Source: Ruficoccus amylovorans | Lineage (GTDB): Bacteria; Verrucomicrobiota; Verrucomicrobiia; Opitutales; Cerasicoccaceae | Reading direction: 5' to 3' | Assembly (NCBI RefSeq): GCF_014230085.1 | Contig: NZ_JACHVB010000025.1 | Span: 1-64,000 of the forward strand | DNA length: 64,000 nucleotides | In this document: piece after piece, positions 19,220 through 47,367 of the stretch | How positions within the stretch are numbered: position 1 is the first letter of the stretch | Layout of the letters: the number at the start of each line of letters is the position of its first letter | Translations under genes and position numbers: made by a program | Notes under the pieces: model-generated | Told to the model about the DNA's origin: nothing | Database searches by the model: none | The model's input: only the letters and a program-made list of their open reading frames with translations

Positions 19220-19648
19220 TCAATCCTCCTCCGGCAGAGCGGAGATGTTCGCCTTGCGCATGGTGAATGTATTGGTTTCGTCAATACGCCGGTACTCGAT
19301 GTGATCCATCAACTGCTTGCAGAAAAAGATGCCCAGCCCGCCGATGGGGCGCTCCTCCAGCGGCGCGTCGATGTCCGGCTCCCTGGCGTCGTGGAGCGGG
19401 TCAAAGGCCTTGCCGTGATCGCGAATAACCGCCTCCACCTCGTCGCCGATCAGTTTCATAGAGAGGTAGATATGATGCTGGGCGGGCACCTCGTAGGCGT
19501 AGGAGATGATGTTGGTCAGAACTTCGTCCAGGCAAAGGTTGAAGGTGTGGACGAGGGCCGGGTTCAGGTCGTGCGCCTCGCCGAAGCGCTCCAGGTCGGC
19601 GGCCAGTTGGTTGAGTTCCTTGACGTCGTTGATGTAGGTAAAGTCCAT
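19220..19648 (-). CDS. RsbW-type serine kinase/anti-sigma regulatory factor
   Basis: The 142-residue single-domain GHKL ATPase (HATPase_c_2) is of the anti-sigma/serine kinase type used in partner switching. The N box is LCLDEVLTNIISYAYE, the G1 box AVIRDHGKAFDP, and the G2 box PIGGLGIFFCKQLMD. Such proteins either bind a sigma factor or phosphorylate a STAS-domain antagonist. It lies 80 bp downstream of an RsbU-type phosphatase on the same strand and is probably co-transcribed. A STAS protein is encoded at 41602-41937, not adjacent here. Confidence 0.85.
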   Translation of the reverse strand: MDFTYINDVKELNQLAADLERFGEAHDLNPALVHTFNLCLDEVLTNIISYAYEVPAQHHIYLSMKLIGDEVEAVIRDHGKAFDPLHDAREPDIDAPLEERPIGGLGIFFCKQLMDHIEYRRIDETNTFTMRKANISALPEED

Positions 19649-21527: not shown

Positions 21528-22484
21528 ATGCAAGCGGGACAAGCCGTTACGCGACACTATCCCATCCCCAGAATCGACTTTGCCGATTTCTGGGACATTT
21601 GCGGCACCTTCATGCGCATCCACCCCGGGCTCACGCGCATCCGCTACACCATCGAGGGCTCCGAGTCCACCTTGGCCGACCACGAGTACGACGTGGCCCG
21701 GATTCTCGACCGGCTCCACCGCCAGCCCCAGGACCTCCTGCTGATGGAGGCCGAGTTCGAGGGGCCGAACACCCGCGAGGGGCACGCCCGCGCCGTTTAC
21801 CGCCCCGTACCGGTGGACAGCGACCCCGGCGGCCTCACCATCTCGACCCCCAGCCTTTCCAAGCTCCTGCTCTACCAGTTCGAGAGCCTGCTTTACGATA
21901 AATACGACCTCGAAGAGCAGCTCCACCCCACGGTCAAATTCGGCAAGCCCTGCGAAGTGCTCGCCTCGATCATCGACCTGCGCGGCTTTTCCCAATTCTG
22001 CGAAAAGCCCACCATCGAGTCCCCCTACACCTGCGGGCTCATGCACTCCTTTTACCAGGCCGTGCGCCACGGCTACATCAAGTACCCGCCCGACCTGCTC
22101 AAATTCCTCGGCGACGGCGTGCTCGCGCTCTGGGAAACCACGGCCGAGGACCGCGAAGTCGCCATCGAGACCTGCCTCTCCGGCTCGCTCGATATCCACA
22201 ACCGCTGGCAAGTCGTGCGCCGCAGCCCGCAGTTCACGCACGGGGCGCCCGAGGAGGTCGCCGTCGGCATCTCTTTTGGCCTGGCCAGCCGCCTGCCCGA
22301 AGTCGGCGACTACATCGGTCGCCCCGTCAACATCGCCAGCCGCCTCAGCAGCGTCTGCCCCGGTGGCCAACTCTACGTGGACAAATCCGTCCCCGGCATC
22401 GGCCCCGAGTATTCCAAGGACGACGCCACCGCCCACATCAAGAGCTTCGGACGCTACTACATCTGGCGCATCCACGCGGTTTGA
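21528..22484 (+). CDS. Class III nucleotide cyclase-like protein
   Basis: The 318-residue protein has a novel-looking N-terminal region (1-140) and a C-terminal adenylate/guanylate cyclase homology domain. The first metal Asp is in LASIIDLRGFSQFCEK, the second in LLKFLGDGVLALWE. The substrate and transition-state region reads VGISFGLASRLPEVGDYIGR followed by PVNIASRLSSVCPGG, including the Asn and Arg. It may therefore make cAMP or be a degenerate regulatory cyclase domain. The N-terminal region has no sensor motif I recognise. The stop overlaps the region just before a gluconokinase gene, with no intergenic gap. Confidence 0.8.
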   Translation: MQAGQAVTRHYPIPRIDFADFWDICGTFMRIHPGLTRIRYTIEGSESTLADHEYDVARILDRLHRQPQDLLLMEAEFEGPNTREGHARAVYRPVPVDSDPGGLTISTPSLSKLLLYQFESLLYDKYDLEEQLHPTVKFGKPCEVLASIIDLRGFSQFCEKPTIESPYTCGLMHSFYQAVRHGYIKYPPDLLKFLGDGVLALWETTAEDREVAIETCLSGSLDIHNRWQVVRRSPQFTHGAPEEVAVGISFGLASRLPEVGDYIGRPVNIASRLSSVCPGGQLYVDKSVPGIGPEYSKDDATAHIKSFGRYYIWRIHAV

Positions 22485-25294: not shown

Positions 25295-25717
25295 TCAATC
25301 CCCGTCGCCAATCCGGGCTAGAATCGCGCGGACATGCTCGCTGAAGTAACACTCATCGCGAGAGAGTGCCTCAATGGCGCGCTGAAATTCCTCCAGCCCC
25401 TCCCCTTTTTCGATAAAGCCGTCCACTTGGCCGTCACGGGCGATACGGACATTTTCCGGGGTAGCCGCTCCCGTGAAGAGAATGACTTTCGAGGCGGGAT
25501 GCTCACGCTTGATCAGATAGAGCGCCTCCAACCCCGAGATGGCCGGCACACGGATGTCAGCCAGGATCAGGTCCGGTTTTTTCTCATTGATCTCGCGCAT
25601 GGCGACTGCTCCGTCGCCACAGCTCCCGACGATCTCCATCTGCGTGAAAGAAGATATGAATGTCTGCACTAATTCCCGCAGCAGGGCCTCGTCTTCAATG
25701 ATGTAAGCCGTTTTCAC
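25295..25717 (-). CDS. Single-domain response regulator (CheY-like)
   Basis: This is a receiver domain of about 140 residues with no output domain. Acidic residues are in TAYIIEDEALLREL, the phospho-Asp in LILADIRVPAISG, Thr in VILFTGAATPEN and Lys in GFIEKGEGLEEF. I chose the GTG at 25717 because it starts just before the conserved TAYIIEDE strand. The longer frame to 25780 adds 21 unlikely residues. No histidine kinase is adjacent, so the partner is unknown. A short C-terminal tail (YFSEHVRAILARIGDGD) follows the domain. Confidence 0.85.
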   Translation of the reverse strand: MKTAYIIEDEALLRELVQTFISSFTQMEIVGSCGDGAVAMREINEKKPDLILADIRVPAISGLEALYLIKREHPASKVILFTGAATPENVRIARDGQVDGFIEKGEGLEEFQRAIEALSRDECYFSEHVRAILARIGDGD

Positions 25718-25968
25718 TTCTATAGATAGAGCCTGATCTGGCAAGCAAACCCCGTCAATCCACAATATGTCCACAAGCATCCAGTCAATACCCCACGAAT
25801 AAGACTACATAATATTACCTATCCCAGGACCGGGCTGATCCGTGTTCGTCCGCAGCCAGCTAAAGAAGCATTTTCGAGATTCACCTCCGGCCTCCTTTGT
25901 TACCGGCATAGAGTCTTACCGACCCAAAGCCAGCATTTCGCCCTAAAAGCGATCAAGAAAATCCAGAA

Positions 25969-31115: not shown

Positions 31116-31183
31116 ATTTAACAGGAAGGCCGGGAAGAACGCTAAGCAATCGCCTCCCGCACTTTCCCCTCTTCCTGTTAAAT
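31116..31183. repeat. Palindromic dispersed repeat, copy D
   Basis: The left arm ATTTAACAGGAAG (31116-31128, followed by GCCGGGAAG) pairs with the right arm CTTCCTGTTAAAT (31171-31183). The stop codon of cheB (31178-31180) lies inside the right arm, so the element supplies the 3' end of the chemosensory operon. Confidence 0.78.
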
Positions 31184-32221
31184 CTTTTGGGATGTCTCCA
31201 GCAGTGGTTTCAGGCGGGCCTTGACCGCTCCGGCAATAGCCGGGAGCGGCAGCACCTCGCAGGCGGCCTTGAGCGTCACCGCCGCCTTGGGCATACCGTA
31301 CACCACACTGGTGGACTCGTCTTGCGCGATGGTGTGCCAGCCCTTGTGGCGCAGCGAAAGCATGCCCTCGGCCCCGTCGCGCCCCATACCAGTCAGGAGC
31401 ACGGCGATCCCGCCGCGCAGCCAGTAATGCGCCGCCGAGTCAAACAGCACGTCCACCGACGGGCGATTAATCAGTTCGTGCGGCTCGGGGCTGTAGGCCA
31501 GAAAACCGCCGGGCCGCAGCATCAAGTGCTGGTCGCGTCCGGCGATAAGCACTTCCCCCACCTGGGGGACCTCGTGATTAGCCGCCAGTCGGACAGACAA
31601 CTCGCAGCGATGATTCAGCCACTCGGCCAGCCCGGCAGCGAAGTCCGGGTCCACGTGCTGCACAATGACGACCGGAGCCGGAAAATCCGCCTCAAAGCCG
31701 GACAAAAGCGCGGCCAACGCCTGCGGGCCGCCCGTCGAAGCCCCGACCACGACCAGTGGTGGCTGGGTACCGGAATCCGCCTGCCGGACAGGCGGCAAGG
31801 CTCCCACCGCGTTGCGCGGGTGGCTGTGCCCGATGGCGTAGCCCAGATGGGCGATCTTGTCCAGCAGGCTGCGCCCACCCTCTAGTTCGCCCGCCGGACC
31901 CAGCGTGGGAGTGACAGCGGCATCAAGAGCCCCGTAGCCCATCGCCTCGTAAACAAGCTCGCCGTGCGTGCTGACCGAGGCCGTCACGATCAGGATCGCG
32001 CAGGGGCACTCGGCCATAATCCGGCGGGTGGCCTCCACCCCGTCCATGACCGGCATGACCAGGTCCATTAAAATCAAATCCGGCGTATCCTCCCGGCAGC
32101 GGCGCAGGGCCTCCTCGCCGTCGCGGGCCATCCAGGTGACTTCGTGCTCGCCGGAGCTGGAAACCACTCGCCGCAGCGCCTCAATGGCGAGGGCCATATC
32201 GTTAACAATGGCGATCCTCAC
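31178..32221 (-). CDS. cheB: CheB-type methylesterase/glutamine deamidase (WspF-like)
   Basis: This enzyme removes methyl groups from chemoreceptors and is activated by phosphorylation of its receiver. The 347-residue protein has a receiver (1-120; phospho-Asp in LILMDLVMPVMDG) and a CheB domain. The catalytic Ser is in VVVGASTGGPQALA, the His in VIVQHVDPDFAAGLAEWL and the Asp in LLTGMGRDGAEGMLSL. It is last in a minus-strand operon and overlaps the CheA gene by 4 bp. Its stop falls in a palindromic repeat. By gene order it corresponds to WspF, the negative regulator of Wsp-like systems. Confidence 0.95.
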   Translation of the reverse strand: MRIAIVNDMALAIEALRRVVSSSGEHEVTWMARDGEEALRRCREDTPDLILMDLVMPVMDGVEATRRIMAECPCAILIVTASVSTHGELVYEAMGYGALDAAVTPTLGPAGELEGGRSLLDKIAHLGYAIGHSHPRNAVGALPPVRQADSGTQPPLVVVGASTGGPQALAALLSGFEADFPAPVVIVQHVDPDFAAGLAEWLNHRCELSVRLAANHEVPQVGEVLIAGRDQHLMLRPGGFLAYSPEPHELINRPSVDVLFDSAAHYWLRGGIAVLLTGMGRDGAEGMLSLRHKGWHTIAQDESTSVVYGMPKAAVTLKAACEVLPLPAIAGAVKARLKPLLETSQKI

Positions 32222-34629
32222 TCGCGCGGCCCTCCGATCAGGTCGTTGATCGCGCCGATGAAGGTCTCGTCCTGAAAGCTGCTCTTGGTCAGGTAATAAT
32301 CGGCCCCGGCCTCCAGCCCCTTGAGCCGGTCCTCCTCGCGGTCCTTGTAGGAGACGATGATGACCGGCAGGCGTTGCAGGCGGGAGTCCTGCCGGATGCG
32401 GGAGACGAACTCGTAGCCGTTGAGCCGTGGCATGTCCACGTCACTGACCACCAGGTCGAACTCGCCCAGGCGCACGGCGTTCCAGCCGTCGGCCCCGTCC
32501 ACCGCCACCTCGACGGCGTACCCGGCGTTTTCCAATAGCTGGCGCTCGGTCTCGCGCACGGTGATGGAGTCGTCCACCACCAGCACGCGCTTGACGGGGG
32601 CTTTTTCCTCCTGCTCGCTGTAGCGCGACTGCATGCTGTCGCCACCGGCCAGGAGCTTGTCCACCGAGTGCACGAGGTCCTCCACATCGAGGATCAGGAT
32701 CGGCTCGCCCTCCTCCGAGAGCGAGGCGGCGCTGACGCCGGGCACCTTGCCCAGGCGGCGGTCCAGCGGACGCACCACCAGGTCGGTCTCGCCGGTGAGC
32801 TTGTCCACCTCGACGCCGTAAAGGTTGTTGCGGTCGTTGACGACCACGACGTTGATGTGGCGCGCGATCATGCTGACCGCCCCGGCCAGCCCGAGGGCCG
32901 AGCGCGAAGACACCAGCCCGATATTCTGCCCGTCGAGGTCGAAGTACTGGCGGTTTTCCAGCACCTTTAAGTCGCCGATGTTGAGCAGGAGCGTGCGATT
33001 GATACGGCTGAGGGGAAAGGCGTAGGGCTCGCCATCTATCTCGACCAGCAGCGCCCGGATAACCGAGCGGGTGATCGGCAACTGGAGATGGAACGTCGTT
33101 CCCTTACCCAGCTCGGTCGAGATGCGAACCTGCCCGCCGACCTCCTGCATGAGCGTCATCACCACGTCGAGGCCGACTCCGCGACCGGAGATTTCCGTCA
33201 CTTGCCCGGCGGTAGAAAAGCCCGGCAGAAACAGAAACTCCAGCAACTCGTCGTGGTTGAGGCTGCGGGCCATGTCCTCGGTGGCGAGGCCCTTTTCTAC
33301 AATCTTGGCGCGCAGGCGCTCGACATCGACGCCGCGCCCGTCGTCGCGCACCTCCACGATGAGCATGCCAGCGCTGTGCCGGGCGAGCAGCCGCAGAGAA
33401 CCGGCCTCAGGTTTACCGGCAGCGGCGCGGTCGGCGGGCAATTCGAGCCCGTGGTCGCAAGCGTTGCGCAGGAGGTGGTTGAGCGGGGCCTCCAGCCGGT
33501 CGAGGATGTCGCGGTCCACCGGCGTTTCCTTGCCCTCGATGGAAAAGCGGATCTGCTTGCCCGTGGTCTTGGCCAGGTCCCGGATAAGGCGCGGGAAGCC
33601 CTGCACCCCGTCGCCGAAGGGCCGCATACGGCTCTCGAGCACCTCGCGGTAGAGCCGGTCCGAAAGTAATGTGTTGCGCTGGGAAAAGGCGGCGAAAACC
33701 TCCAACTGGTTGCGGATCGAGCGCAGATTCTCGTGCGCGGCCAGCCGGATCTGCTCCAGGTGGCGGTTGAAGCTGGCCGGGTTTTCGCCGTTTTCCAGCA
33801 ACTTGCATCCCTGATCGATGCGGGCGTTCAGCTCGGTCTGCGACTCCTTCAACCGCAGGAGCGTCTCGCGAAAATGCTCAAGCTGGCGCGTCTCCACCAG
33901 CGTCTCCGCCGCCAACCCCATGAGGCGGTTCAGGTTGTCCGCCGACACGCGCACGACCTGTTCAGCCCCGTGCGGGGCCGACTTCGATGCGGGTTTGGCA
34001 GCGGGGACGGACTTTTTATCGCCGGGGGCGATGGGCACGCTTCCGGTAGAAGCGGGTTGCCCCTCGACTTGCGCGGAGACGGTGACATCTCGCTCCCCGG
34101 CAACGGAGGAAGCATCGGCCTCGGAACCAGCCCCACCGGTGGCGGACGACTCGTCTGCATTCGCCGGGGCGGATTCCTTTGCGGTAGCGGAAGTGCCCCC
34201 GGCCCGGCAAGTATCCGGCACCGGACCACCCGCGCGGACAGCGTGCAAGGCTTCGGCCAGCACGGCGGAGCGGGGTTTGTTTTCTTCCAGCCAGGCGGGC
34301 ATGGTGGCAGCGTCGGGGCCGCCCGAGTCCACAAGAAAGTCCACCGTCCGAAGCAGCAGGTCAAAGAAGCCTTCGGGGAAGTCGAGCTTGCCCTCGCCCA
34401 CGGCGACAAAGACATCCTCCAGCGCGTGGGCGACAGTCGAAACCGGCTCCAGCCCGATGATGCGGGCCGCGCCCTTGAGCGAGTGGGCAGCGCGCATAAG
34501 GTTGTTGATCAGCGCGGTGTCGCCGGGTGCGTTTTCCAGCTCCAGCAACCCGTTGTTGAGCGCCGCGCCGTGCGTCTCCACCTCCTGTTGGTAGAGATCC
34601 AGCATCGAGAAATCCGGTTCGGCGGCCAT
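32218..34629 (-). CDS. cheA: Hybrid CheA histidine kinase with receiver (WspE-like)
   Basis: This is an 803-residue kinase of a chemosensory array. The order is an N-terminal Hpt domain (phospho-His 49 in RAAHSLKGAARIIGLE) and an Ala/Ser/Pro-rich linker (about 140-225). The dimerisation and ATPase domain follows (N box NHLLRNACDHGLELP; G1 VEVRDDGRGVDVERL; G2 SGRGVGLDVVMTLMQEVGG), then a CheW-like domain. The C-terminal receiver has VLVVDDSITVRETERQLL and the phospho-Asp in LVVSDVDMPRLNGYEF. A CheA with a fused receiver is typical of WspE and FrzE-type non-flagellar systems. It overlaps cheB by 4 bp and follows cheW closely. Confidence 0.96.
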   Translation of the reverse strand: MAAEPDFSMLDLYQQEVETHGAALNNGLLELENAPGDTALINNLMRAAHSLKGAARIIGLEPVSTVAHALEDVFVAVGEGKLDFPEGFFDLLLRTVDFLVDSGGPDAATMPAWLEENKPRSAVLAEALHAVRAGGPVPDTCRAGGTSATAKESAPANADESSATGGAGSEADASSVAGERDVTVSAQVEGQPASTGSVPIAPGDKKSVPAAKPASKSAPHGAEQVVRVSADNLNRLMGLAAETLVETRQLEHFRETLLRLKESQTELNARIDQGCKLLENGENPASFNRHLEQIRLAAHENLRSIRNQLEVFAAFSQRNTLLSDRLYREVLESRMRPFGDGVQGFPRLIRDLAKTTGKQIRFSIEGKETPVDRDILDRLEAPLNHLLRNACDHGLELPADRAAAGKPEAGSLRLLARHSAGMLIVEVRDDGRGVDVERLRAKIVEKGLATEDMARSLNHDELLEFLFLPGFSTAGQVTEISGRGVGLDVVMTLMQEVGGQVRISTELGKGTTFHLQLPITRSVIRALLVEIDGEPYAFPLSRINRTLLLNIGDLKVLENRQYFDLDGQNIGLVSSRSALGLAGAVSMIARHINVVVVNDRNNLYGVEVDKLTGETDLVVRPLDRRLGKVPGVSAASLSEEGEPILILDVEDLVHSVDKLLAGGDSMQSRYSEQEEKAPVKRVLVVDDSITVRETERQLLENAGYAVEVAVDGADGWNAVRLGEFDLVVSDVDMPRLNGYEFVSRIRQDSRLQRLPVIIVSYKDREEDRLKGLEAGADYYLTKSSFQDETFIGAINDLIGGPRE

Positions 34630-34631
34630 GA

Positions 34632-35222
34632 TCAGAGAATCTTGTTGCTGAGGCTGTGGAAGATGAGTTCGTCGTCGAGCCAGCCGATCTGCTGGCCGCG
34701 CAGGCTGAAGAGGCCCTTCGTGTAAGTGGCGAGAGCCTTGGCCACCGTCACCGGTACGGCCTGCATCTGCGTCAGTTCGAAGTGCACCACCCCGTAAACC
34801 TCCTCCACCCGGAAGGCGAAGGCGTTGTTGTCACGGCCGATGAGGATCATCCGGCGGTAAACGCGGCGGCTGAGGCTGGCGGCCTCGGCCTTGGGGTCGC
34901 GCAGCCCGAGCAGCGCCTGGAGAGCCACCGTCAACTGAAGCTCCCCGCGCACGTTGCAGACGCCCCGCAGCACGTCATTCGAGCGGCGGGGAATCCGGTG
35001 CACGGTTGCCTCGGCGCAGACCTCCTTAACCACCGGGCAGGCCAGCGCGAGCCACTCGTCCTGCAGGCGAAAAACCAGCAGGGCCACCGTCTCGCGCGTC
35101 TCCTCCTCGGGCGGGTTTTTGATACGCTCAATCCACTCCTCGCGGTAGCCCTCGGGGTACGGACGGTCAAGCAGGCTCTCGACCTGACGGTTTTCCGGCG
35201 GCGGTAAAAGTTCCTCAGACAT
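34632..35222 (-). CDS. cheW: CheW-like coupling protein (WspD-like)
   Basis: The 196-residue protein consists of an N-terminal charged extension and one CheW domain. The domain begins TVALLVFRLQDEWLALACP and includes HRIPRRSNDVLRGVCNVRGE, the coupling-protein signature. CheW links receptors to CheA in the array. It overlaps the upstream CheR-TPR gene by 8 bp. Having two CheW-type proteins flanking a CheR-TPR gene is the layout of wspB-wspC-wspD. Confidence 0.92.
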   Translation of the reverse strand: MSEELLPPPENRQVESLLDRPYPEGYREEWIERIKNPPEEETRETVALLVFRLQDEWLALACPVVKEVCAEATVHRIPRRSNDVLRGVCNVRGELQLTVALQALLGLRDPKAEAASLSRRVYRRMILIGRDNNAFAFRVEEVYGVVHFELTQMQAVPVTVAKALATYTKGLFSLRGQQIGWLDDELIFHSLSNKIL

Positions 35223-36510
35223 GGGCGGCCTCCAGCTTGCGGACGCGCGCTCTCAAGCGCTGCGCCTCCTGTGCCGAGCCCCGACGCTCGGCCAACAGCG
35301 CCATCTGCACCAGCGCGTCCAGGTGGTTCGGATTCAGGTAAAGGGCCTTGCGGATACAGGTCTCGGCCTCTGCCAGCCGCGATGAAGCCATCTCGATCTG
35401 CCCGAGCAAAAAGAGAGCGTCGGCACTTGGCTTATGGGTCTGCAAATGCGTCAGGCACTGCTCACGGGCGGCGGCGAGATTCCCCTGATCTGCCAGTCGC
35501 GCAATCTCGTGCAGGACCAGGGCGGAAGCGTCCTTTTCGGAGGAAGCGTTCACGGCCCCGGAAGTCGCGGCGGGAACGGGCGATTTTAAAGCGGAACGAG
35601 CGGGCACGACAGTTGAAGACCGGCGCGAAGCGGAACCCGATGCGGAAACCCGGCCTGTCTTGCGGGCGGGGACGGAGCATGGTTTAGCGACACCCGATGC
35701 CGGGACGCTCAGCCGCCGGCGGTAGCAGAAAGCGCTCGCCGGACCGGTCGGCTCAAACTCGCCCGTCAGCACGGACAGTCCGTCGGCGTGTCCGACGAAA
35801 AACAGCCCGCCGTCGGCCAATAGTTTCTGCATGTGGCCGACCACGCTGCGGCGAGCATCCTCGCAGAAGTAGATCAGCACGTTGCGGCAGAAAATCACGT
35901 CAAAAGACGGGGCGAAGGCGAGGCTGCCGGGATCGAGCAGGTTGCAGCGCTTGAAGGACACACAACGGCGCACCTGCTCGCGCACCCGCATCCCGCCCTC
36001 CGGAAGCGGCTCGAAGTGGTGACGACGGCCCTCAGCATCCTTCCCCCGGAAGGCCATCGAGCGGTACTCACCCCGGCGGGCGTGGACGAGGTTACGCTCG
36101 CTCACATCCCCGGCATAGACGCGGAAACTTCTTTCCGGCAGACCGGAGTCGATCAGTGTCATGGCAATCGAATACGGCTCGGGACCGGAGGCGCAGGGCA
36201 CGCTCAGTACGCGCAGCATGCGGTCGGGGCCGGACTGGCCGGACCACTCGGACTGGACCCAGCGGGCCAGAAAATCAAAGGGGGCGCGGTCCCGAAAAAA
36301 CCACGACTCGGGCACCAGTAGCTCGTCGACAAACGCCTCAAACTCCTCCCCCGACGCCAACAGCTTTTCCAGGTAGGCATCCTCATCCTCCACCCCGAGC
36401 TGGCGCATGCGGTGGTGCGCGGCAACGAGGCAGCCCGGCCCCGAAAGCACAGTATCGTCAAAGCCGTAGGTGCGGCGCAGGCGCTGGAGCATATCCGGCG
36501 GCAGGGTCAT
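35215..36510 (-). CDS. cheR: CheR-type methyltransferase with C-terminal TPR (WspC-like)
   Basis: The 431-residue enzyme methylates glutamates on chemoreceptors using SAM. The CheR domain (1-270) has an N-terminal helical region, the SAM-binding RVLSVPCASGPEPYSIAMTL and the DVIFCRNVLIYF motif. A Ser/Ala/Pro-rich linker (about 275-335) precedes a C-terminal TPR-like region (ALFLLGQIEMASSRLAEAET, then CIRKALYLNPNHLDALVQMA). CheR proteins with TPR tails are characteristic of Wsp-type systems. It overlaps the CheW gene on each side by a few bp. Confidence 0.94.
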   Translation of the reverse strand: MTLPPDMLQRLRRTYGFDDTVLSGPGCLVAAHHRMRQLGVEDEDAYLEKLLASGEEFEAFVDELLVPESWFFRDRAPFDFLARWVQSEWSGQSGPDRMLRVLSVPCASGPEPYSIAMTLIDSGLPERSFRVYAGDVSERNLVHARRGEYRSMAFRGKDAEGRRHHFEPLPEGGMRVREQVRRCVSFKRCNLLDPGSLAFAPSFDVIFCRNVLIYFCEDARRSVVGHMQKLLADGGLFFVGHADGLSVLTGEFEPTGPASAFCYRRRLSVPASGVAKPCSVPARKTGRVSASGSASRRSSTVVPARSALKSPVPAATSGAVNASSEKDASALVLHEIARLADQGNLAAAREQCLTHLQTHKPSADALFLLGQIEMASSRLAEAETCIRKALYLNPNHLDALVQMALLAERRGSAQEAQRLRARVRKLEAAHV

Positions 36511-36968
36511 GCCGGGACCTCCTTACACTGGCGCAGCAGGGCGCGAATCTCGGGGGTGATCAGTTCCTCGACCTCGACGCACTGGACAAGCTCGCCGCGG
36601 GCATCCTTGAGCACGCGGCCCAGGTGCGGGGCCTCCGGCGGGCGCAGCCCCGGGTCGAGCAGCGCGGCCTCGTCCACCGTCAGGGTGTCGGTGACTTTCT
36701 CGGCCAGCAGGGCGACAAGTTGGCCGCTCCCGCCGTTGGCCTCGACCACAAGGTAACGGGTGCTCAGAAAAATCTCCGCCGGGCGACCGACCGTTAACTG
36801 GCACAGGTCAATCACGGGCAGGATTTTCCCCCGATACTCGAAAATCCCCTTCACCGCGGCGGGAGTGCCGGGCACCTCACGCACGGGCATGGCGGGCACA
36901 ATCTCCACCACCCGCTGCGAATCCAGTCCGTAGCGGCGCGGGCCGAGTTGGAACAAAATGATCAACAT
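36507..36968 (-). CDS. cheW: CheW-like coupling protein (WspB-like)
   Basis: The single CheW domain of 153 residues starts MLIILFQLGPRRYGLDSQRV. It has VREVPGTPAAVKGIFEYRGK followed by ILPVIDLCQL, the typical CheW core. It is expected to couple the two upstream receptors to CheA. It lies 12 bp after an MCP gene and overlaps the CheR gene by 4 bp. Confidence 0.92.
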   Translation of the reverse strand: MLIILFQLGPRRYGLDSQRVVEIVPAMPVREVPGTPAAVKGIFEYRGKILPVIDLCQLTVGRPAEIFLSTRYLVVEANGGSGQLVALLAEKVTDTLTVDEAALLDPGLRPPEAPHLGRVLKDARGELVQCVEVEELITPEIRALLRQCKEVPA

Positions 36969-36980
36969 GGTCGGTGCGCC

Positions 36981-39185
36981 TCAGCCGCCGGAAGATTTTT
37001 TCGGGCGCATGGGAAAGGGCATGTTCGTCATGCCGGTGGTGTTGCGGTCGGCTACCTTGAAGCGGGAAACTTCGCGCCGCAGGTTGTTGACCGCCGTGTG
37101 CAGGGCCTGCGTGGCCTTGTCGAACTCGACCAGCGAATCGGCGCTGCGCTGCGCGCCGTCCTTGAGGTTCGTCATCGCGTCGCTGATCTGGGCCGCGCCC
37201 TGCGTCTGCGACTGCATCCCTTCCCGCACCTCGGCGAAGCGCGGGGAAAGCTCCTGTACGCGGCTGATGATGCCGTCGAGCTGGCGGCTGAGCTCGTCAA
37301 TCTCGCCCACGCCGCCGCGCACGCCCTCGGAGAACTTGTCCATCTCCATGACTCCGGCGGAGACGGCGCTCTGCATCTCCTTCACCATCTGGTCGATGTC
37401 CACCGTGGCCTTGGCGGTCTGGCTGGCCAGCCGGCGAATCTCACGCGCCACCACGGCGAAGCCCAGCCCGAACTCGCCCGCTTTTTCCGCCTCGATGGCG
37501 GCGTTGAGCGAGAGCAGGTTCGTCTGCTCGGAAACCTTGTTGATGGCGGTGACGATGCGGGTGATGTTGCTGGCCTTGTCGGAGATGGCCGCGAGCTTGT
37601 CCGAAATCGACTGCGTGGCCCCGTCCAGGTGGCTCATGGCCTCGGCCATGGCGGCGAGCTGCTGGCGGCCGGTCTCGGCCATGCCCGCGGTCTCGGAGGA
37701 GCTGGAGGAGACATTCTCCATCGTGTTGAGCAGTTCGCGGGAGGTTGCGCTGATCTGGCTCACGGCAGCGGCGATCTGCGTCGTCGAGGCCCCGAAGTCC
37801 TGAATCGTCGCCTCCTGCGACTTGGCCGTGCCGGTGATCCGGGTGGCGGTCGAGACAAGCTGGATAGTGGCGCTTTTGACCTGGAGCAGCAGGCCGTTGA
37901 GGCTGCCGACCATATCCTTGATCGCCTGGAGCAGTTGGCCGGACTCGTCCTTGGTATCGACTTCGACTTCCGCCGTGAGGTCGCCCCGGGCCACACGCTG
38001 GGCCAACTCGTTTGCTACCGAAATACGACGCGAGAAGGAATTGGCAAAGATCCAGATGATGAGAATAATCAGCAGCACCGTCACCCCGACCATCGCAAAG
38101 GTGAGCGCGGCAGATTCGCGGGTCGGCGCCATGATCTCGCTGAAGCTCACCGTCATGACCAGGCGCCAGCCCCCGGTGGGGATGTAGGCGCTGGCGATGA
38201 AGGAGCGCTCACCGCGCAGGGGGTCGTCGATCTCGATCACATCGGTGTTGCGTCGCGAGAGGGAAAAGCGCTGGAAGATGTCGCGGTAGGTGTTGCTGAC
38301 GTTGCCGTCGAGGAGGCGCTCGGCCTTGGCCTCGTCAAACTGGAGCATCCCGCTGCCCTCGTCGAAAGTGAAGACATCGGTCAGCATACGGCCTTTTTCA
38401 CCGGGGTTTTCCTGAACAAAGAGCTGGTCAACCGGCGCGGTCCGCAAGCCCGAGCCGTAGGTGGTTGAAATGATGCGCCCCCGGCTGCTGATGAGAAAGA
38501 ACTCCGCCGACTCGTAGGGCTTGAGCTTGTTGATGAACTCGTCGAGGAAGTCCAGACCCCGATCGATCCCGCAGATGCCCATGAAGCGCCCGTCGATGAT
38601 AATGGGGGCCATCTGTTCGACGATCAAGTTGGCGTGGTTATAAACGTAGGGCTCGGTCACGAGGAACGTCTCGCTGCTGCCGCGGATGTACTTCTCCTTC
38701 ACCCCGGCGTAGTAGAGCGCGCTCTCCATGTCCACCAGCGGCTCCAGCGTGTAGGCACCGTTGTTCTGCGGGTCGCGGAACCAATAGGCCAGGAAGCGCC
38801 CGTCGGCGTCGAGATAGGTGTCCCCGTCCTTGAAGTTCTGCACATACTCGGCGTCGCGTCCGTCGGCGTTGGGCTCGTAGCCGCAACTGGCCCCGATGAA
38901 CTCCGGAAAGTCGTCCAGCACGCCACGTAAAAGCTCGATTGTCTCCTCGCGCTTGCCGAAGAGGCCGTTCTGCTGGGCCAGGGCGAGCGTCCGCACGACG
39001 GAGACCGATTCGCTGTTGTCACGCTCGATTTCGAGGGCGGCTTTCTGGAGCTGTTCGGCGATGAGCTGCTTCTGCCCGGCGATCAAGGTGTCGCGCACCC
39101 GGAGCATGTTGAAGGCGGCCAGCGAGAGCATGATGACCAGCACCGGGAGCACCATCGTCAGCATGATTTTCGAACGCATCTTCAT
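36981..39185 (-). CDS. Methyl-accepting chemotaxis protein with dCache sensor
   Basis: This is a 734-residue transmembrane receptor. An N-terminal helix ([20 protein letters not shown]) is followed by a large periplasmic dCache-type domain (about 40-370, with [34 protein letters not shown] and [13 protein letters not shown]). A second helix ([20 protein letters not shown]) and a HAMP-like segment come next. The signalling region has the conserved tip [20 protein letters not shown]. It overlaps the previous MCP by 4 bp. There is no CheR-binding pentapeptide at the C-terminus. The ligand is unknown. Confidence 0.95.
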
Positions 39186-41425
39186 GACGGCTCCTCCTCC
39201 GAGGCGGGCTTGTCGCCGTCCATGCGGAACCGGGCGATCCCGTCCTGCATGGCCTGGACGGCGCGGTTGAGCTTGTCTGTGGTGTTTTTAAAACCTTGCA
39301 GCGAAGCGGAGGTCTGGTGGGCGGCGAGGTTGAGGTTGGCCACGGCCTCGGAAATCTGCGAGGCCCCCACGGCCTGCGAGGACATACCCTCGCGCACACT
39401 GTCGAAGCGCGGCGTAAGCGCCTCGACCTGCTCGATGATGTTCTCCATCTGTCCGCTGAGTTGGGCCGTGTTGTCAATGCCGGTGCGGACGGCCTCGTTG
39501 AACTTGTCCATCTCCATGACCCCGGCGGAAACCGAGGACTGCATCTCCTTCACCATCTGCTCGATGTCCTGCGTGGCCACGGCGGTCTGGTCGGCCAGGC
39601 GGCGGATTTCACGCGCCACCACCGCGAAGCCCAGCCCGTACTCGCCCGCCTTCTCGGCCTCAATGGCGGCATTGAGCGAGAGCAGGTTCGTCTGGTCGGC
39701 CACCTTGGCGATGGTCGTGACCACGGCGTTGATGGCCTGCGCACGCTCGGCGATGACGGAGAGCTTCCCGGTAATAGACCGGGTGGCCGTCTCCAGCCCC
39801 TCCGACCCCTCGCGCATCTCCTCCAGGTGTGAACGGCCCGCGCTGGCGATCCCGGCGGTGTTGCGGGCGCTTTCGGAGACCTTGTTCATGGTCTGGGAAA
39901 GCTCCTGCGAGGTGCTGGAAATCTCCTTCACGGCGGCGGCAATCTCGCTGGAAGACGAGCCGAAGTCCTGCACCGTGCCTTCCTGCGCCCGGGCCGTATC
40001 CGTCATCTCGGTTGCGGTCCCGGCCAGTTGGCGGCTGGAGTCGCGGACTCCTCCGACGAGGGCATTGAGGTTGCGGATCATCTTGAGGATGGCCCGGAAA
40101 AGCTGACCCGTCTCGTCCTGTTGATGGACGAGTTGGCGATTACCACTCTGCACCTGACAGCACTCTTCCATCTGCGAGGCGGCTTGCCCAAGGCGACCTT
40201 CGGCCACAAGTTCGGAAATATTCGTCAGGTAAGTGATCGGGCGGGCGATCCAGCCGCCCAGGACGGTGGCCAGCAAACCGACCACAACGAGCGTAGCGAT
40301 GGCCCCGATGAGGGTGTGCTTTAAAATCGCGGTAAAGGCGTGGGCCACCTCCTGATGCGGACGGTCGAACTCGCGCTCGAAAGCCGTCACCCCGACCACC
40401 CAATCCCAGGGCTTGAAGTAGGCGTAGTGGATTTCCTTGTAGCGGACATTGCCGGAAGCGTCCTGCCAAGCCACGTCTTCGGTCCCGACCTCGCCAGGCT
40501 GGAGCCGGATGGCCTTTTTGCGGATGTCCTCGATGTAGTCGCGTCCGTCGATGTCGCGCACACGGGAGATATCCTGCATCTCGGCCGCGCCGTCGCGGAA
40601 GAACTCGTAACGTCCCCGACCCATTTTATCCTGGCCGGGCATGATCCAGGCGTAGCCGGTTTCGCCCACTTCGATGGAGGACAAGGCCCGGCGCAGGCTG
40701 TCCACGCTCTCGCGCTTCACGCCGACGTAGAGCATGCCGATGATCTCCTCGCCCCGCGAATCATAAACCGGCTCATAGGCGGCCAGGTACCAACTGTTCA
40801 CCACGAAGGCGCTGCCCTGGTAAGTGTCGCCCCGCATGACAGTGGAAACGACCGCATTGGGTGTGCCGTCGGGATCGACGGCGGGGATGTAAGTGCCGAT
40901 GGCGCGGTCGCCCTCCAACGTGAGGACATTGGTGGCCACGCGCAGCATATCGCCCTCCTCGTTCATGCGCTGGAAAATCGTCGCCGTGCCGCCAACCATG
41001 TCCCGGACGGCGTCCACCAGCGCGGTGGGCTTGGCGGCGTCGACGTTCTGGCCGAGCCATTCCTCACCGAGGAGCATTTCGGGCAGTTCGAGGCCGCGCT
41101 TCTCGTCGTTAAGCTGGTTCACCGCGTTCCAGCGTACAAGCTCGGCTCCGAGACGCAGGCCGCCTTCTTCCTTTACGAGGTGGTCGGCCACCCCGAGGGC
41201 TGCGTCCACCTGAAGCTGGACGAGGTCATTGGCGTTGGCGCACAGGTTGTAAATGTCGCGGGTGGTCTGGTCGAGATTAGCCGCGACCATGGCGTCAAGC
41301 TGCTCGCCGATGATGTGCGTACTCTTGCGCTCCTGCACGAATATGAGCAGCGCCAGCACGATTGCCGGCAGCAAGGCCGAGAAGAGCGCCAGACCGGTGA
41401 CTTTGTGCCGGAGCTTAAGTTTCAT
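39182..41425 (-). CDS. Methyl-accepting chemotaxis protein with Cache_3-type sensor
   Basis: The 747-residue receptor is the first gene of the chemosensory operon. It has an N-terminal helix ([20 protein letters not shown]) and a periplasmic Cache region. The Cache region carries [20 protein letters not shown] and a long [20 protein letters not shown] stretch, typical of Cache_3-Cache_2 sensors. A second helix ([20 protein letters not shown]), a HAMP-like linker and the signalling tip [20 protein letters not shown] follow. The signalling half closely resembles that of the MCP at 36981-39185, suggesting an old duplication with sensor replacement. Confidence 0.95.
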
Positions 41426-41525: not shown

Positions 41526-41554
41526 TAAAAAAAGCGGCGTGGACACGCCGCTTT
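41526..41554 (-). terminator. Rho-independent terminator between the STAS gene and the MCP operon
   Basis: On the minus strand AAAGCGGCGTG and CACGCCGCTTT form an 11-bp perfect stem (41531-41554) and run into further T's. It ends the STAS gene transcript before the MCP operon begins. Confidence 0.85.
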
Positions 41555-41601: not shown

Positions 41602-41937
41602 TCAGGAGAGGGCCTGGAGGGCTTCCTCGCGGGTCGCGTAGATCGGGAAAATGCTGGTAAAGCCGGAGATTTCGAAGACCTGCTTGACGTTCGGGTTGAG
41701 CGTCGCCAGGGCGATGGACCCCGACTGCTTCTTGAACTGCTTGGCGGCGGAGAGCAGCACACGCAGGCCCGCGCTACTGATGTAGTCCAGCTCGCGGCAG
41801 TCCACCAGCACCTTGACTTCGCCCGCTTCGGCCAGCGAGGTCAGCTTTTCGTCCAGCGAGCCGGATGTGCTGACATCGAGACGCCCCTGGAGGCTGAGAA
41901 TATTGATGGAGTCCTGTTTTTCCTGGGTAATTTCCAC
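41602..41937 (-). CDS. STAS-domain anti-sigma factor antagonist
   Basis: This is a single STAS domain of about 111 residues starting at a GTG (41937; EITQEKQDSINILSLQGRLD). The phosphorylatable Ser region is RELDYISSAGLRVLLSAAKQ, the classic site targeted by RsbW-type kinases and RsbU-type phosphatases. The longer frame to 42123 runs over the neighbouring sugar transferase gene and is not supported. A terminator lies 48 bp after its stop. Its natural partners may be the RsbW/RsbU-type pair at 19220-20931. Confidence 0.9.
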   Translation of the reverse strand: MEITQEKQDSINILSLQGRLDVSTSGSLDEKLTSLAEAGEVKVLVDCRELDYISSAGLRVLLSAAKQFKKQSGSIALATLNPNVKQVFEISGFTSIFPIYATREEALQALS

Positions 41938-42044: not shown

Positions 42045-43451
42045 TCAGTACGCCGAGGAGGGCGGGCGCAGGATCATATGCACCGTGCGCAGGATAATTT
42101 CGATGTCCATCCAGACCGACCACTCATTAATATACTCCAGGTCGTAGTGGACCCGCTGACGCAGCAGTTCCACGTCGGTGATCTCGCCCCGAAAGCCCTT
42201 ACACTGGGCCAGGCCGGTCAGGCCGGGCTTTACGAAATGGCGCTGCGGATAGATTTTCACGTCCTGGCTGAAGATCCGGTCGTGCTCGGGCAAGTGCGGG
42301 CGGGGGCCGACCACGCTCATTTCGCCCTTGAGCACATTAATGAACTGCGGCAACTCGTCCAGGCTCGTGCGGCGCATAAACTCCCCGAAGTGGAAAACCC
42401 GCGGGTCGTGCCGGGTCGCCTGCCTGGCCTCGTCTCCTTTGCGCCGCACGTGCATGGTGCGGAACTTGTACAGGACAAACTCCCGTCGGTTGTACCCCCG
42501 GCGGACTTGCTTGAAAAACACTGGTCCCGGTGACTCGCGGCGGTGGAAAAACCACACCAGCGGAATCATCACCGGCAGAACCAGAAAAACCACCGGCACC
42601 GCGATGGAAAGGTCGAGCAGACGCTTGATCATGCGGTTGAGCGGGCTTTCCAGCGGCTCTTCCCGCAGGGTGAAGAACGTGTGAGGGCCGTCCTTGACGC
42701 TGATCAGGGGGTAGTCGAAATATTCCGCCCAGGGGTTGAAAATCAGGATCTGGCAGCCCTCCTCCTCCGCTGCTTCGAGGATCTCCTTTACCCACTCCTT
42801 TGAGTGGCGGGTCTCCAGCAGGATGATCTGGTTGACCCCCTGCTCGCGGATCGTCTCCCGCAGCCGCGAGACATCTCCCAGCAAAGGGATATCTATCTGT
42901 TGCGGCTCCGTTTCGCCGTAGTTGAGCAGTCCGATCACCTCGATCCCGAGCGACTGCTTGCTGCGCAGCCAACCGGCGATGCGCGAGCACGAGGCCGTCG
43001 TCCCCACCACCAGACACGAGCGGGTGTTCTTCCCCCCCAGCACGTAGCGGGAGAGCCAGCCGGGCAGGAACATGTTCAGCGAAAACAGGATCAGGTACGC
43101 GCACACCAGGTACAAGCCGATGAACACACGGGAGATGGCCTTGTCCTTGGTCGCGAAGATGATCGCAAACAGAATCAGCACCAGAATGAAGATCTGGAGG
43201 TTTGTGACCTGAAAGACCCGCGCCCGGTCCTGCGCTGAGACCGACGGCCCCAGCAGGGTGTAGAAGTTGAAGAAAATCGCCCCGGCCGACACCAGGCCTG
43301 TCATATACAGGGGCCAGTTGATCAACTCATACTCCAGCCGCCCGGCGAACTCCACCCCGACCAGGGCCAGGACATAGAACAGCAGCGGCAACACCAGCAC
43401 GATAACACATCCGTGCAGGGCCAGGAGTCCTCTATAGCGACTGTCGAGCAT
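42045..43451 (-). CDS. Polyprenyl-phosphate hexose-1-phosphate transferase (WcaJ/WbaP type)
   Basis: This 468-residue enzyme should start a polysaccharide repeat by moving a sugar-1-phosphate onto undecaprenyl phosphate. The N-terminal half has four membrane helices and a Rossmann-like domain (NTRSCLVVGTTASCSRIAGW). A fifth hydrophobic segment leads into the catalytic domain: RGYNRREFVLYKFRTMH, RRTSLDELPQFINVLKGEMS and VVGPRPHLPEHD, with the family's key DELPQ. It is transcribed away from the rest of the locus, with a 292-bp divergent region between it and the GbsR-type regulator. The donor sugar cannot be told; UDP-Glc or UDP-Gal is typical. Confidence 0.93.
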   Translation of the reverse strand: MLDSRYRGLLALHGCVIVLVLPLLFYVLALVGVEFAGRLEYELINWPLYMTGLVSAGAIFFNFYTLLGPSVSAQDRARVFQVTNLQIFILVLILFAIIFATKDKAISRVFIGLYLVCAYLILFSLNMFLPGWLSRYVLGGKNTRSCLVVGTTASCSRIAGWLRSKQSLGIEVIGLLNYGETEPQQIDIPLLGDVSRLRETIREQGVNQIILLETRHSKEWVKEILEAAEEEGCQILIFNPWAEYFDYPLISVKDGPHTFFTLREEPLESPLNRMIKRLLDLSIAVPVVFLVLPVMIPLVWFFHRRESPGPVFFKQVRRGYNRREFVLYKFRTMHVRRKGDEARQATRHDPRVFHFGEFMRRTSLDELPQFINVLKGEMSVVGPRPHLPEHDRIFSQDVKIYPQRHFVKPGLTGLAQCKGFRGEITDVELLRQRVHYDLEYINEWSVWMDIEIILRTVHMILRPPSSAY

Positions 43452-43743: not shown

Positions 43744-44241
43744 ATGAGCACCGCCCCCGCAGACACGAGCCTCGGCCAGACCGAGCGGGAGATCATCGCG
43801 CTGATGGCAGGCGCGGTGCAGATGCTCGACCTGCCCAAGTCCCTGGGCGAAATCTACGGGCTGCTCTACGTCTGCGAGGAGCCCCTGTGTATGGACGACA
43901 TCATCAAGCGGCTCGGCATCAGCCTCGGCACCGCCAGCCAGGGGCTTAAGCAGTTGCGGGCCTTCCGCGCCGTACGCACGGTGGAAAAGCCCGGCCGCCG
44001 CTGCGACTACTACGAACCCGAAACCGAACTGCGCCGTCTCCTGGGGAACATCCTGCGCGAACAGCTCCAGCCCCGGCTCGACTCCGGTCAGGAAAAACTC
44101 CGCCAACTCAAGGATCGCCTGCGCGAGGAGCCCGACTCCGCCCGCCAGGCGCACCTTCGGCAGCGGGTGGACAAGCTATTCCGCTGGCACGCCAACGCCA
44201 GCCGCCTCCTGCCACTGCTCAGCACCCTGATGAAAACATGA
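43744..44241 (+). CDS. GbsR/MarR-family winged-helix regulator
   Basis: The 165-residue DNA-binding protein starts MSTAPADTSLGQTEREIIAL. The winged helix-turn-helix is GLLYVCEEPLCMDDIIKRLG, then ISLGTASQGLKQLRAFRAV, followed by a long C-terminal helix for dimerisation, as in GbsR. The start at 43744 has a good Shine-Dalgarno (GGAG, 6 nt away); the frame extends upstream without support. It is the first gene of the forward polysaccharide operon and overlaps the antiterminator gene by 4 bp, so it probably regulates this locus. Confidence 0.85.
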   Translation: MSTAPADTSLGQTEREIIALMAGAVQMLDLPKSLGEIYGLLYVCEEPLCMDDIIKRLGISLGTASQGLKQLRAFRAVRTVEKPGRRCDYYEPETELRRLLGNILREQLQPRLDSGQEKLRQLKDRLREEPDSARQAHLRQRVDKLFRWHANASRLLPLLSTLMKT

Positions 44242-44789
44242 CTTTCTCTGACCAAGCGGCGTGGTACTGCCTGAAGACCCAGCCCAAACGCGAGCGAGCC
44301 GCCGCGACGAGCCTGAGCGCGCTCGACGGGGTGAGCGTGCTCTTCCCCCAAGTGCGCTACCGGCGGCAGACTGCCCGGCGGGGACGCACGGTACTGGAAC
44401 CGCTTTTCCCGAACTACCTCTTCGCCCGCTTCCGCCCCCTGCACCAGATCAAGGCCGTGGGCTACGCCCGCGGAGTCGCCTATGTCGTGCGTCAGGGAAC
44501 AGACCTGATCCCCGTCCCGGCCTCCGTCGTCGAGGAGTTGGCCACCCTCGCCCCCGGCAACATCCTGGAGCTTCCCCTGCAGCCGGTCCAGGCCGGAGAA
44601 AACATCCGCATTATCGCGGGGATTTTCCAGGGCAACAGCGCCGATGTCGTCCGCCTGCTTCCGGGCTCCGAACGCGTGCGCGTGCTACTCGACATCCTCG
44701 GGCGCAGCCAGGAGATCGAACTTTCCCTCAACGAAGTGGAACGCCGCTACCGCCATCCGCTTGGTTCACAACCATCCGAAGGCTCCTGA
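44238..44789 (+). CDS. NusG/RfaH-family transcription antiterminator
   Basis: The 183-residue NusG paralogue resembles RfaH/UpxY-type factors of polysaccharide operons. The N-terminal NGN domain begins AWYCLKTQPKRERAAATSL and includes EPLFPNYLFARFRPL and RGVAYVVRQGTDLIPVP. The C-terminal KOW-type part has AGENIRIIAGIFQGNSADVV. Such proteins ride with RNA polymerase through long operons and suppress early termination. Its place at the head of a 17-kb run of overlapping glycosyltransferase genes fits that role exactly. Confidence 0.92.
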   Translation: MTFSDQAAWYCLKTQPKRERAAATSLSALDGVSVLFPQVRYRRQTARRGRTVLEPLFPNYLFARFRPLHQIKAVGYARGVAYVVRQGTDLIPVPASVVEELATLAPGNILELPLQPVQAGENIRIIAGIFQGNSADVVRLLPGSERVRVLLDILGRSQEIELSLNEVERRYRHPLGSQPSEGS

Positions 44790-45064: not shown

Positions 45065-45934
45065 ATGAGCGAACTTTCCACCGACAAAACGCTGCCCGTC
45101 ATCACCGTCATCCAACCCGCCCAGGGCTGGCTGCGTATCGACTGGCGAGAAATCTGGAACTACCGCGACCTGCTCCTGCTGCTGGTGCGGCGGGACTTCG
45201 TCTCCCGGTACAAGCAGAGCCTGCTCGGACCGCTGTGGTTCGTACTCCAGCCGCTGGTCATGACGGTCGTCTTCACCGTCATTTTCGGGCGCATCGCGCA
45301 GATTCCCTCCGACGGCGTGCCCCACACCCTGTTTTATCTCTGTGGACTTCTGGGCTGGAACTACTTCGCCCAGATTCTCAACGGCACCAGCACGACCTTC
45401 ACCTCCAACGCGCACATTTTCCAAAAAATATACTTCCCGCGTCTGGTGGTGCCGTTTTCGGTCGCCGCGTCGTCCATCTTTACCTTTATCATCCAGCTCG
45501 GGCTGTTCCTGCTCGTTTACGCCGGTTTCAAGTTCTTCTCCGACGCGGGCGCGAACTTCGGCATGACCTGGCGGGTCGTCTTCGTGCCGCTGCTGCTGGT
45601 GCACTCGGGCATCCTCGCGCTCGGAGTCGGGCTGTGGATGAGCGCCCTCACCGCCAAGTACCGCGATCTCTCCCACCTCAACCAGTTCATCATCCAGATC
45701 TGGCTCTACCTGACGATTATCATCCCCGTCTCCAGCGTCCCGGCCAAGTACCTGTGGTTCGTCCTGCTCAACCCGATGACCCCGATCATCGAAGCCTACA
45801 AGATAGCCTTCCTGGGCAAGGGCACCGTCGAACCTCTTTTCTACCTGTGCTCCATCGTCATCAGCCTCGGGGTCTTCTTCACCGGAACTCTCGCTTTCCA
45901 GCGTACCGGACGCACCTTCGCCGACACGGTGTAA
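45065..45934 (+). CDS. wzm: Polysaccharide ABC exporter, permease (Wzm/TagG type)
   Basis: The 289-residue ABC-2-type membrane protein exports lipid-linked polysaccharide with the ATPase encoded next. It begins with a cytoplasmic segment containing LLLLLVRRDFVSRYKQSLLG, then PLWFVLQPLVMTVVFTVIFG, the canonical Wzm entry. Six membrane helices follow (including YLCGLLGWNYFAQILNGTST and FTFIIQLGLFLLVYAGF). The C-terminal LLNPMTPIIEAYKIAFLGKG is diagnostic. It lies between the two copies of the intergenic repeat. Confidence 0.95.
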   Translation: MSELSTDKTLPVITVIQPAQGWLRIDWREIWNYRDLLLLLVRRDFVSRYKQSLLGPLWFVLQPLVMTVVFTVIFGRIAQIPSDGVPHTLFYLCGLLGWNYFAQILNGTSTTFTSNAHIFQKIYFPRLVVPFSVAASSIFTFIIQLGLFLLVYAGFKFFSDAGANFGMTWRVVFVPLLLVHSGILALGVGLWMSALTAKYRDLSHLNQFIIQIWLYLTIIIPVSSVPAKYLWFVLLNPMTPIIEAYKIAFLGKGTVEPLFYLCSIVISLGVFFTGTLAFQRTGRTFADTV

Positions 45935-46053: not shown

Positions 46054-47367
46054 ATGCCCGCGCCCATCATCGAAGTCGAACGCCTCTCCAAGCTCTACCG
46101 TCTCGGCACGGTCGGGGCCGGCACCCTGCGCGAATCCCTCCAGCACTGGTGGGCCAGCCGCGTGCGCCGACGCGAGAGCGGCGACTGGCAAGCCAACTCC
46201 AAACTGAAAATCCCCGCCGGGCGCGCCGGTCCTCGCCCAAACACCATGTGGGCGCTGCGGGAGACCTCCTTCAGCGTCAACGAAGGCGAGACCCTCGGCA
46301 TCATCGGTCGCAATGGCGCGGGCAAGTCCACCCTGCTCAAACTCCTCTCCCGCATCACCGAGCCGACCACCGGCCGCGCCGTCATCCGGGGCCGCGTCTC
46401 CTCGCTGCTCGAAGTCGGCACCGGCTTCCACCCCGAGCTGACCGGACGCGAGAACATTTTCCTCAACGGCACTATTCTGGGTATGCGCCGCGGCGAGATC
46501 CGCGACAAGCTCGACGACATCATCGAGTTTTCCGAGATCGGGGCCTTTGTCGATACCCCGGTCAAGCGCTACTCCAGCGGCATGACCGTGCGCCTGGCCT
46601 TCGCCGTGGCCGCGCACCTGGAGCCCGATGTGCTCATCGTGGACGAGGTGCTCGCCGTCGGCGACGCCGCCTACCAGAAAAAGTGCATCGACAAGATGCG
46701 CGAAGTCGCCCGGCAGGGTCGCACGGTACTCTTCGTCAGCCACCAGCTCTCCACCCTGGCCAACCTCTGCGACCGCTCCATCCTTCTCCACGACGGCCAG
46801 CTCTGCGCCGACGGCCCTTCCCGCGAGGTCATTAATCAGTACCTCAACACCAGTTCCAAGCACTCCAGTCATCGCCTCTGGGAGACGCCCGAAGACGCGC
46901 CCGGCGACGACATCGCCCGCCTGCACGCGGTCACGGTTTTCTGCGACGGCATGCCCACCGACAACATCGAAATCGACCGCGACATTGTAGTGGAAATCCA
47001 ATACTGGTGCCTCAGAGACGGAGCCCGCCTCAACCCCGCCTTCATCCTCGTGGATAAAATCGGCACGCCCGTCTTTTCCTCTCCCAACCTGCCTTCCGCC
47101 CGCCTTGGCGACGACGAATGGGGTTACCGTCCCCACCCCGCCGGGCTCTACCTCAGCCGTATTACCATCCCCGCCAATTTCCTCAGTGACGGTCTCTACC
47201 GCGCCCACATCGCCATACAGACCGACGCCTCCCAGCTCAACGTCTGGGAGGAAAACGCGCTCACCCTCATGGTCCACGACACCGGCGCCATGCGCGGCGA
47301 ATACCATAACGCCTGGATGGGCCTGATCCGCACCCGCTTCGCCTGGGAGACCGACAAGGTCGAATAG
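46054..47367 (+). CDS. wzt: Polysaccharide ABC exporter, ATPase with C-terminal sugar-binding domain (Wzt type)
   Basis: The 437-residue ATPase powers the Wzm channel. Walker A is [16 protein letters not shown], the signature [20 protein letters not shown], Walker [20 protein letters not shown], and the His switch [15 protein letters not shown]. The ATPase part ends near residue 250. The extra 180 residues form a Wzt C-terminal domain, which in E. coli O8/O9a recognises the modified chain end. This predicts a capped polysaccharide, and candidate capping enzymes (a methyltransferase and an acetyltransferase) lie downstream. Confidence 0.95.

Follow-up and report, generated by a model that had tools for sequence, protein, structure and literature searches.

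A Wsp-type chemosensory operon of Ruficoccus amylovorans and its probable output through a WspR-family receiver on a PP2C phosphatase

A seven-gene Wsp-type operon and a WspR-family receiver fused to a PP2C phosphatase were found in the window, the whole 64,000-nucleotide stretch of Ruficoccus amylovorans DNA that was analysed, and from the sequence it is fairly probable that they form a Wsp (alternative cellular function) system whose output is a partner switch, perhaps acting on the polysaccharide locus next to the operon. Wsp is a textbook route from surface sensing through c-di-GMP to biofilm. In the chain that we propose, two Cache receptors sharing one type of signalling tip would control the WspE-like kinase, which, judging from receiver orthology and gene position, would phosphorylate the WspR-type receiver of the REC-PP2C protein. 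The phosphorylated receiver would change the activity of the attached phosphatase, which would oppose the neighbouring RsbW-like kinase; the balance of kinase and phosphatase would determine how far a STAS protein is phosphorylated, the likeliest candidate being the one encoded beside the operon. Free STAS protein would then act on a target and alter polysaccharide production from the adjoining locus, a step suggested by gene neighbourhood and the weakest of the chain, and receptor adaptation would be provided by the CheR-TPR and CheB proteins. Because no GGDEF or PilZ domain was found in the genome, c-di-GMP would not be involved.

The Wsp-type operon and the missing diguanylate cyclase

All seven operon genes lie on the minus strand, and nearly all of them abut or overlap in an operon-like manner. 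Their order is that of the annotated wsp operon of Azoarcus pAZKH plus one extra receptor, and the encoded proteins are 34-55% identical to the Azoarcus Wsp proteins and 28-35% identical, or without a match, to those of the genome's own second chemosensory cluster; the WspE-like CheA is only 28% identical to the second CheA, and trees of WspE, described below, were also built. Judged by sequence, the operon core is orthologous to proteobacterial Wsp. The earlier note on this DNA had described seven genes in a Wsp-like order with an extra receptor, and coordinates, domains, Azoarcus gene order and identities all agree with that description. It had also given the two receptors different sensors and near-identical signalling tips; the sensor halves are indeed unrelated, but the second phrase was a mild overstatement, since identity extends to 73 of 100 residues in the tip region and to 46 of 60 at its core. 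The second chemosensory cluster (G000:C35:105000-124900, L070) encodes CheW, CheR, CheB and CheA proteins that are ~28-35% identical to the Wsp-type proteins.

Table 1. Features of the window that bear on the proposed system, in order of position.
Feature	Position	Strand	Basis
RsbW-like serine kinase (HATPase_c_2)	19220-19648	-	PF13581 1.4e-23
WspR-type receiver fused to PP2C/SpoIIE phosphatase (REC-PP2C), proposed output regulator	19729-20931	-	SpoIIE 1.1e-34; WspR structure matches
CheB with receiver, WspF-like methylesterase	31178-32221	-	PF01339 3.3e-57, PF00072 2e-15; 54.5% to Azoarcus WspF
CheA-REC hybrid kinase, WspE-like	32218-34629	-	Hpt, HATPase, CheW, REC; 46.6% over 812 aa to Azoarcus WspE
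CheW2, WspD-like	34632-35222	-	PF01584 4.7e-18; 34.7% to Azoarcus CheW at WspD position
CheR with TPR, WspC-like	35215-36510	-	PF01739 4e-43 and TPR; 38.5% to Azoarcus WspC
CheW1, WspB-like	36507-36968	-	PF01584 1.7e-24; 43.5% to Azoarcus CheW at WspB position
MCP2 receptor, dCache-like sensor, HAMP and MCP signalling domain	36981-39185	-	dCache_1 below cut-off; signalling half 46% to Azoarcus receptor
MCP1 receptor, Cache3-Cache2 sensor and MCP signalling domain	39182-41425	-	PF17201 9.8e-80; signalling half 50% to Azoarcus receptor
Terminator-like hairpin between STAS gene and MCP1	41531-41554	-	10-bp stem, then T-run
Single-domain STAS protein (anti-sigma-factor-antagonist type), candidate phosphatase substrate	41602-41937	-	PF01740 5e-23; TIGR00377 93.5 bits (cut-off 53.45)
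Polyprenyl glycosylphosphotransferase (PGT, EPS/WcaJ type)	42045-43451	-	TIGR03025 368.9 bits (cut-off 295.55); PF02397 2.1e-63
NusG-like protein, head of polysaccharide locus	44238-44789	+	PF02357 1.3e-13
Wzm-like ABC-2 polysaccharide exporter permease	45065-45934	+	PF01061 4.7e-19
Wzt-like ABC ATPase	46054-47367	+	PF00005 7e-22

The domain search gave no GGDEF match in the whole genome (4.5 Mb, a 64-contig draft with 97.8% completeness) and none in either congener; one of seven genomes of the family has a GGDEF domain, and control genomes gave matches. No PilZ domain was found in the genome either, and the textbook WspR output is thus missing. The earlier statement that no GGDEF gene is present here therefore holds genome-wide, also for GGDEF-receiver proteins elsewhere in the genome. 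Its description of the operon as being without WspR is right as regards a diguanylate cyclase, but a WspR-family receiver does exist, on the PP2C phosphatase.

A WspR-type receiver on a PP2C phosphatase

The REC-PP2C gene, which the earlier note overlooked together with its RsbW-like neighbour, lies on the same strand as the operon and 10 kb beyond cheB; in the genus it is always outside the wsp operon, at a distance of ~31 kb in G020 and on another contig in G039. Its receiver matched the solved Pseudomonas WspR structures 3i5a and 3bre at 9.5e-48 and 3.6e-47; PleD, at ~2e-15, came next among the families with a solved structure, and in bits the WspR structures scored 165 and the next best about 60. 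With the receiver of Azoarcus WspR it shares 61% identity, and a profile built on two WspR receivers of the GGDEF type gave it 196 bits and the window's WspE receiver 25 bits. This was the only WspR-type receiver found in the genome, and a search of the whole genome with the full protein gave no second copy at 1e-20. Among the aligned relatives, D28, D29, D73, S103 and K125 of the receiver and D195, D213, GHG, D339, D391 and D392 of the PP2C domain are invariant. The RsbW-like kinase gene follows eighty bases downstream, an adjacency that is kept in relatives, and all components of a partner switch (PP2C phosphatase, HATPase_c_2 kinase and a STAS protein with a phosphosite motif) are present in the genome. 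By these sequence comparisons, the REC-PP2C protein is very probably the cognate regulator of WspE. Divergent from its gene, and placed in the same way in both congeners, is a gene at 21528-22484 for a class III nucleotide-cyclase-like protein with no Pfam match (CyaB structure, 2.5e-5).

The distribution of these genes was compared over 103 genomes of the order, with a WspE ortholog taken at 444 bits or more (next score 293) and a WspR-type receiver at 144 bits or more (next score 89), thresholds that were chosen after the scores were seen. All 16 genomes with a WspE ortholog had the WspR-type receiver, which occurred in none of the 87 others; 13 of the 16 had the PP2C form and three (G008, G035 and G050) a histidine-kinase form directly after cheB. 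Every one of the 13 Wsp genomes with the PP2C form also had the STAS ortholog, and all three with the histidine-kinase form lacked it. The Fisher values for the two co-occurrences (4e-19 and 0.002) are optimistic, since the genomes share ancestry. STAS orthologs were also found in 15 genomes that have no WspR-type REC-PP2C protein. In two genomes, G031 and G047, a PP2C protein adjoins RsbW and STAS genes but carries a non-WspR receiver (33-34 bits), and no WspE ortholog was found in either, indicating that the phosphatase module also occurs independently of Wsp and that the WspR receiver goes with WspE.

Several variants were seen in the same survey. In L060:16835-19006, L062:16742-18823 and L063:17071-19194 the WspR-type receiver is on a hybrid histidine kinase encoded directly after cheB. 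G067, of the same genus as G016, G036, G051 and G092, has kept the STAS ortholog, and its WspE and REC-PP2C orthologs were not found. In sister genera (L055-L058) there is no cheB match after the WspE-like gene, whose Hpt region appears duplicated, and in L057 that gene is directly followed by one for a WecG-like glycosyltransferase.

Two other sources of an output were weighed against the REC-PP2C protein. The earlier note had proposed the receiver fused to CheA or the free receiver, given there as 25295-25717 and here as 25295-25780, and neither proposal stood up. Both congeners have kept the free receiver, and an orphan receiver can serve as chemosensory output, for which EpsW of Myxococcus is given as a case in PMC4671073; however, this one is not WspR-like, its best solved match being VraR at 56 bits with no match to the WspR receiver profile, and in the congeners it lies beside RraB/AXE genes, not beside wsp. 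A CheA-fused receiver is an ordinary part of WspE, found also in Azoarcus WspE and in GGDEF-type WspE, and an output through either the free or the fused receiver is highly improbable. A conventional diguanylate cyclase lying elsewhere, unassembled or diverged, and acting as WspR would be harder still to credit: the draft state and completeness of the assembly leave it some room, but GGDEF is missing from this genome, both congeners and most of the family, with the controls positive, PilZ is missing as well, and the WspR receiver sits on a different protein.

The STAS protein and the polysaccharide locus

Between the sugar transferase and MCP1 genes lies the STAS gene, with a GTG start at 41937, which the earlier note had also overlooked; its product carries a conserved SSAG phosphosite motif. 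The hairpin downstream of it, which has similar counterparts at the equivalent place in both congeners, parts it from the receptor genes, and the STAS gene therefore probably shares a transcript with the sugar transferase gene and not with wsp. Action of the REC-PP2C protein through RsbW and this STAS protein is favoured on sequence evidence, with less assurance than its pairing with WspE. No SigB/F/G-type sigma factor scored above the TIGR02980 cut-off in the genome, which leaves no candidate of this kind for the target of the switch; the target may be another sigma factor or no sigma factor at all.

As the earlier note had said, the operon stands beside a polysaccharide locus, and its suggestion that the system acts on that locus is plausible from gene neighbourhood. 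PGT, STAS and wsp genes are contiguous in three congeners. In G009 (L066) a gap of 6 bp separates the end of a PGT gene from the first receptor gene downstream of it, the Wzm-Wzt genes are divergent, and the REC-PP2C gene comes right after cheA. In G083 the STAS gene is still with PGT, NusG, Wzy, Wzm and Wzt genes, and wsp is at another place. In genus g2 the STAS, wsp and REC-PP2C genes are scattered, and in g2 and g3 of the family wsp, STAS and polysaccharide genes are mostly apart. Control of the polysaccharide locus by the Wsp output is accordingly put forward as tentative, at a little short of an even chance.

Two rival readings accept the REC-PP2C protein as the WspE output and differ on what follows. 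The switch may run a broader programme, such as attachment, stress or development, with the polysaccharide neighbourhood incidental. The position of the REC-PP2C and RsbW genes outside the polysaccharide locus in the genus, the scattering in g2, and the flanks of most PP2C-type wsp operons in other phyla, which have no PGT, Wzm or Wzt match, point that way, but the contiguity in the three congeners, the STAS-PGT pair of G083 and the PGT-wsp-REC-PP2C arrangement of G009 speak against it, and we consider this reading rather unlikely. Less likely again is that the REC-PP2C/RsbW pair has a STAS partner other than the protein encoded beside the operon. That gene is 21 kb from the pair and the genome has other single STAS proteins; however, the genes of the latter adjoin other PP2C phosphatase, RsbW kinase or SulP genes, and orthologs of the STAS protein beside the operon track the PP2C form of the output. 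We retain the chain from WspE through the REC-PP2C protein to this STAS protein as the preferred reading.

Three further observations concern this locus and the rest of the window. At 43744-44789 a gene for a small HTH-like regulator is followed by the NusG-like gene, which is possibly a dedicated antiterminator. The reduced operon of G009 (L066:4396-14619) has no cheR or cheB and reads PGT-MCP-MCP-CheW-CheW-CheA-(REC-PP2C). Near the window start, at 332-2058, there are two transposase-like ORFs, of helix-turn-helix and DDE type.

Relation to known Wsp outputs and to loci of other phyla

The Wsp R-system of Pseudomonas and Azoarcus shares with the present system the order and orthology of receptors, CheW, CheR-TPR, CheW, CheA-REC and CheB, and the WspR-family receiver. 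It differs in that here the output is PP2C and not GGDEF, no c-di-GMP machinery (GGDEF, PilZ) was found, two Cache receptors stand in place of one WspA, and the regulator gene is displaced from the operon. The WspH protein of Burkholderia (H-system; PMC8552884) also has a WspR-type receiver on a non-GGDEF output, which is a histidine kinase there and PP2C here; the three histidine-kinase genomes of the order have a WspH-like kind, encoded after cheB and not 5' of the operon. Among 794 Wsp systems surveyed in beta- and gammaproteobacteria, the outputs were only WspR or WspH, and no H-system had a 3' regulator (PMC8552884). The many outputs named in a survey of CheR-TPR (ACF) clusters include REC domains joined to family 2C phosphatases (PMC3447774); from this generic listing, phosphatase outputs in ACF pathways are known as a general idea, but as listed there they are linked neither with a WspR receiver nor with RsbW/STAS nor with a polysaccharide locus. 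Vibrio fischeri SypE-SypA and Nostoc Hmp (PMC8256260), likened here by description, have a STAS protein that is connected with a polysaccharide locus and controlled by a serine kinase and a phosphatase; SypE is one dual kinase/phosphatase protein, and Hmp belongs to a different chemotaxis-like system. The domain layout is also that of Pseudomonas RssB (REC-PP2C), but the score of 85 bits with the NCBIfam RssB model is far below its cut-off of 700, and the receiver here is WspR-like.

In the open-access papers searched, no description was found of a Wsp core combined with a WspR receiver on PP2C, RsbW and STAS, and this combination seems to be an undescribed third class of Wsp output, beside WspR and WspH. 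If the proposal is right, surface-type signalling would operate here without c-di-GMP, the sensor, kinase and receiver being kept and the diguanylate cyclase replaced by a phosphatase-driven STAS switch. A chain from WspE to PP2C to STAS would then be predicted in Planctomycetota, Verrucomicrobiota, Desulfobacterota, Acidobacteriota and other phyla; Wsp genes found there may by default be taken for c-di-GMP systems.

Linkage was assessed in 80 relatives from named genomes of many phyla, which had been found with a PP2C-bearing query and many of whose contigs end early. WspE or CheB was in the same stretch in 56 of them, and in 35 the REC-PP2C gene is on the strand of cheB and starts no more than 250 bp beyond it, where wspR lies in true wsp operons. 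A single locus holds all five of WspE, CheB, REC-PP2C, RsbW and STAS in each of L158, L164, L177 and L228, of which L164 is from the cultured non-pathogen Desulfoferrobacter suflitae DRH4, and in L174 and L175 RsbW and REC-PP2C are in different frames and hence separate neighbouring genes. In a phylum-wide sample, REC-PP2C matches were obtained in 38 of 388 genomes, most of them spanning receiver and PP2C.

The GGDEF and histidine-kinase types that were sampled for the WspE trees fell in one group amid PP2C types from many phyla, with a support of 98 SH-aLRT in the quick tree and 91/65 in the careful tree; the GGDEF types came from plasmids only, the PP2C loci had been drawn by a PP2C-bearing query, and the outgroup is a long branch. 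An evolutionary order with GGDEF last is suggestive only. That the PP2C partner switch is the older and more widespread Wsp output, and the c-di-GMP output of Pseudomonas a later replacement, is conceivable from the sequences, if somewhat doubtful. Two WspR-receiver proteins are encoded in tandem after cheB in L165 (7603-9165 and 9962-11227) and L187 (8332-9804 and 9986-11173), both from Deltaproteobacteria/Desulfobacteraceae MAGs; one of the two has neither PP2C nor GGDEF and is probably of the kinase type, and the other has PP2C.
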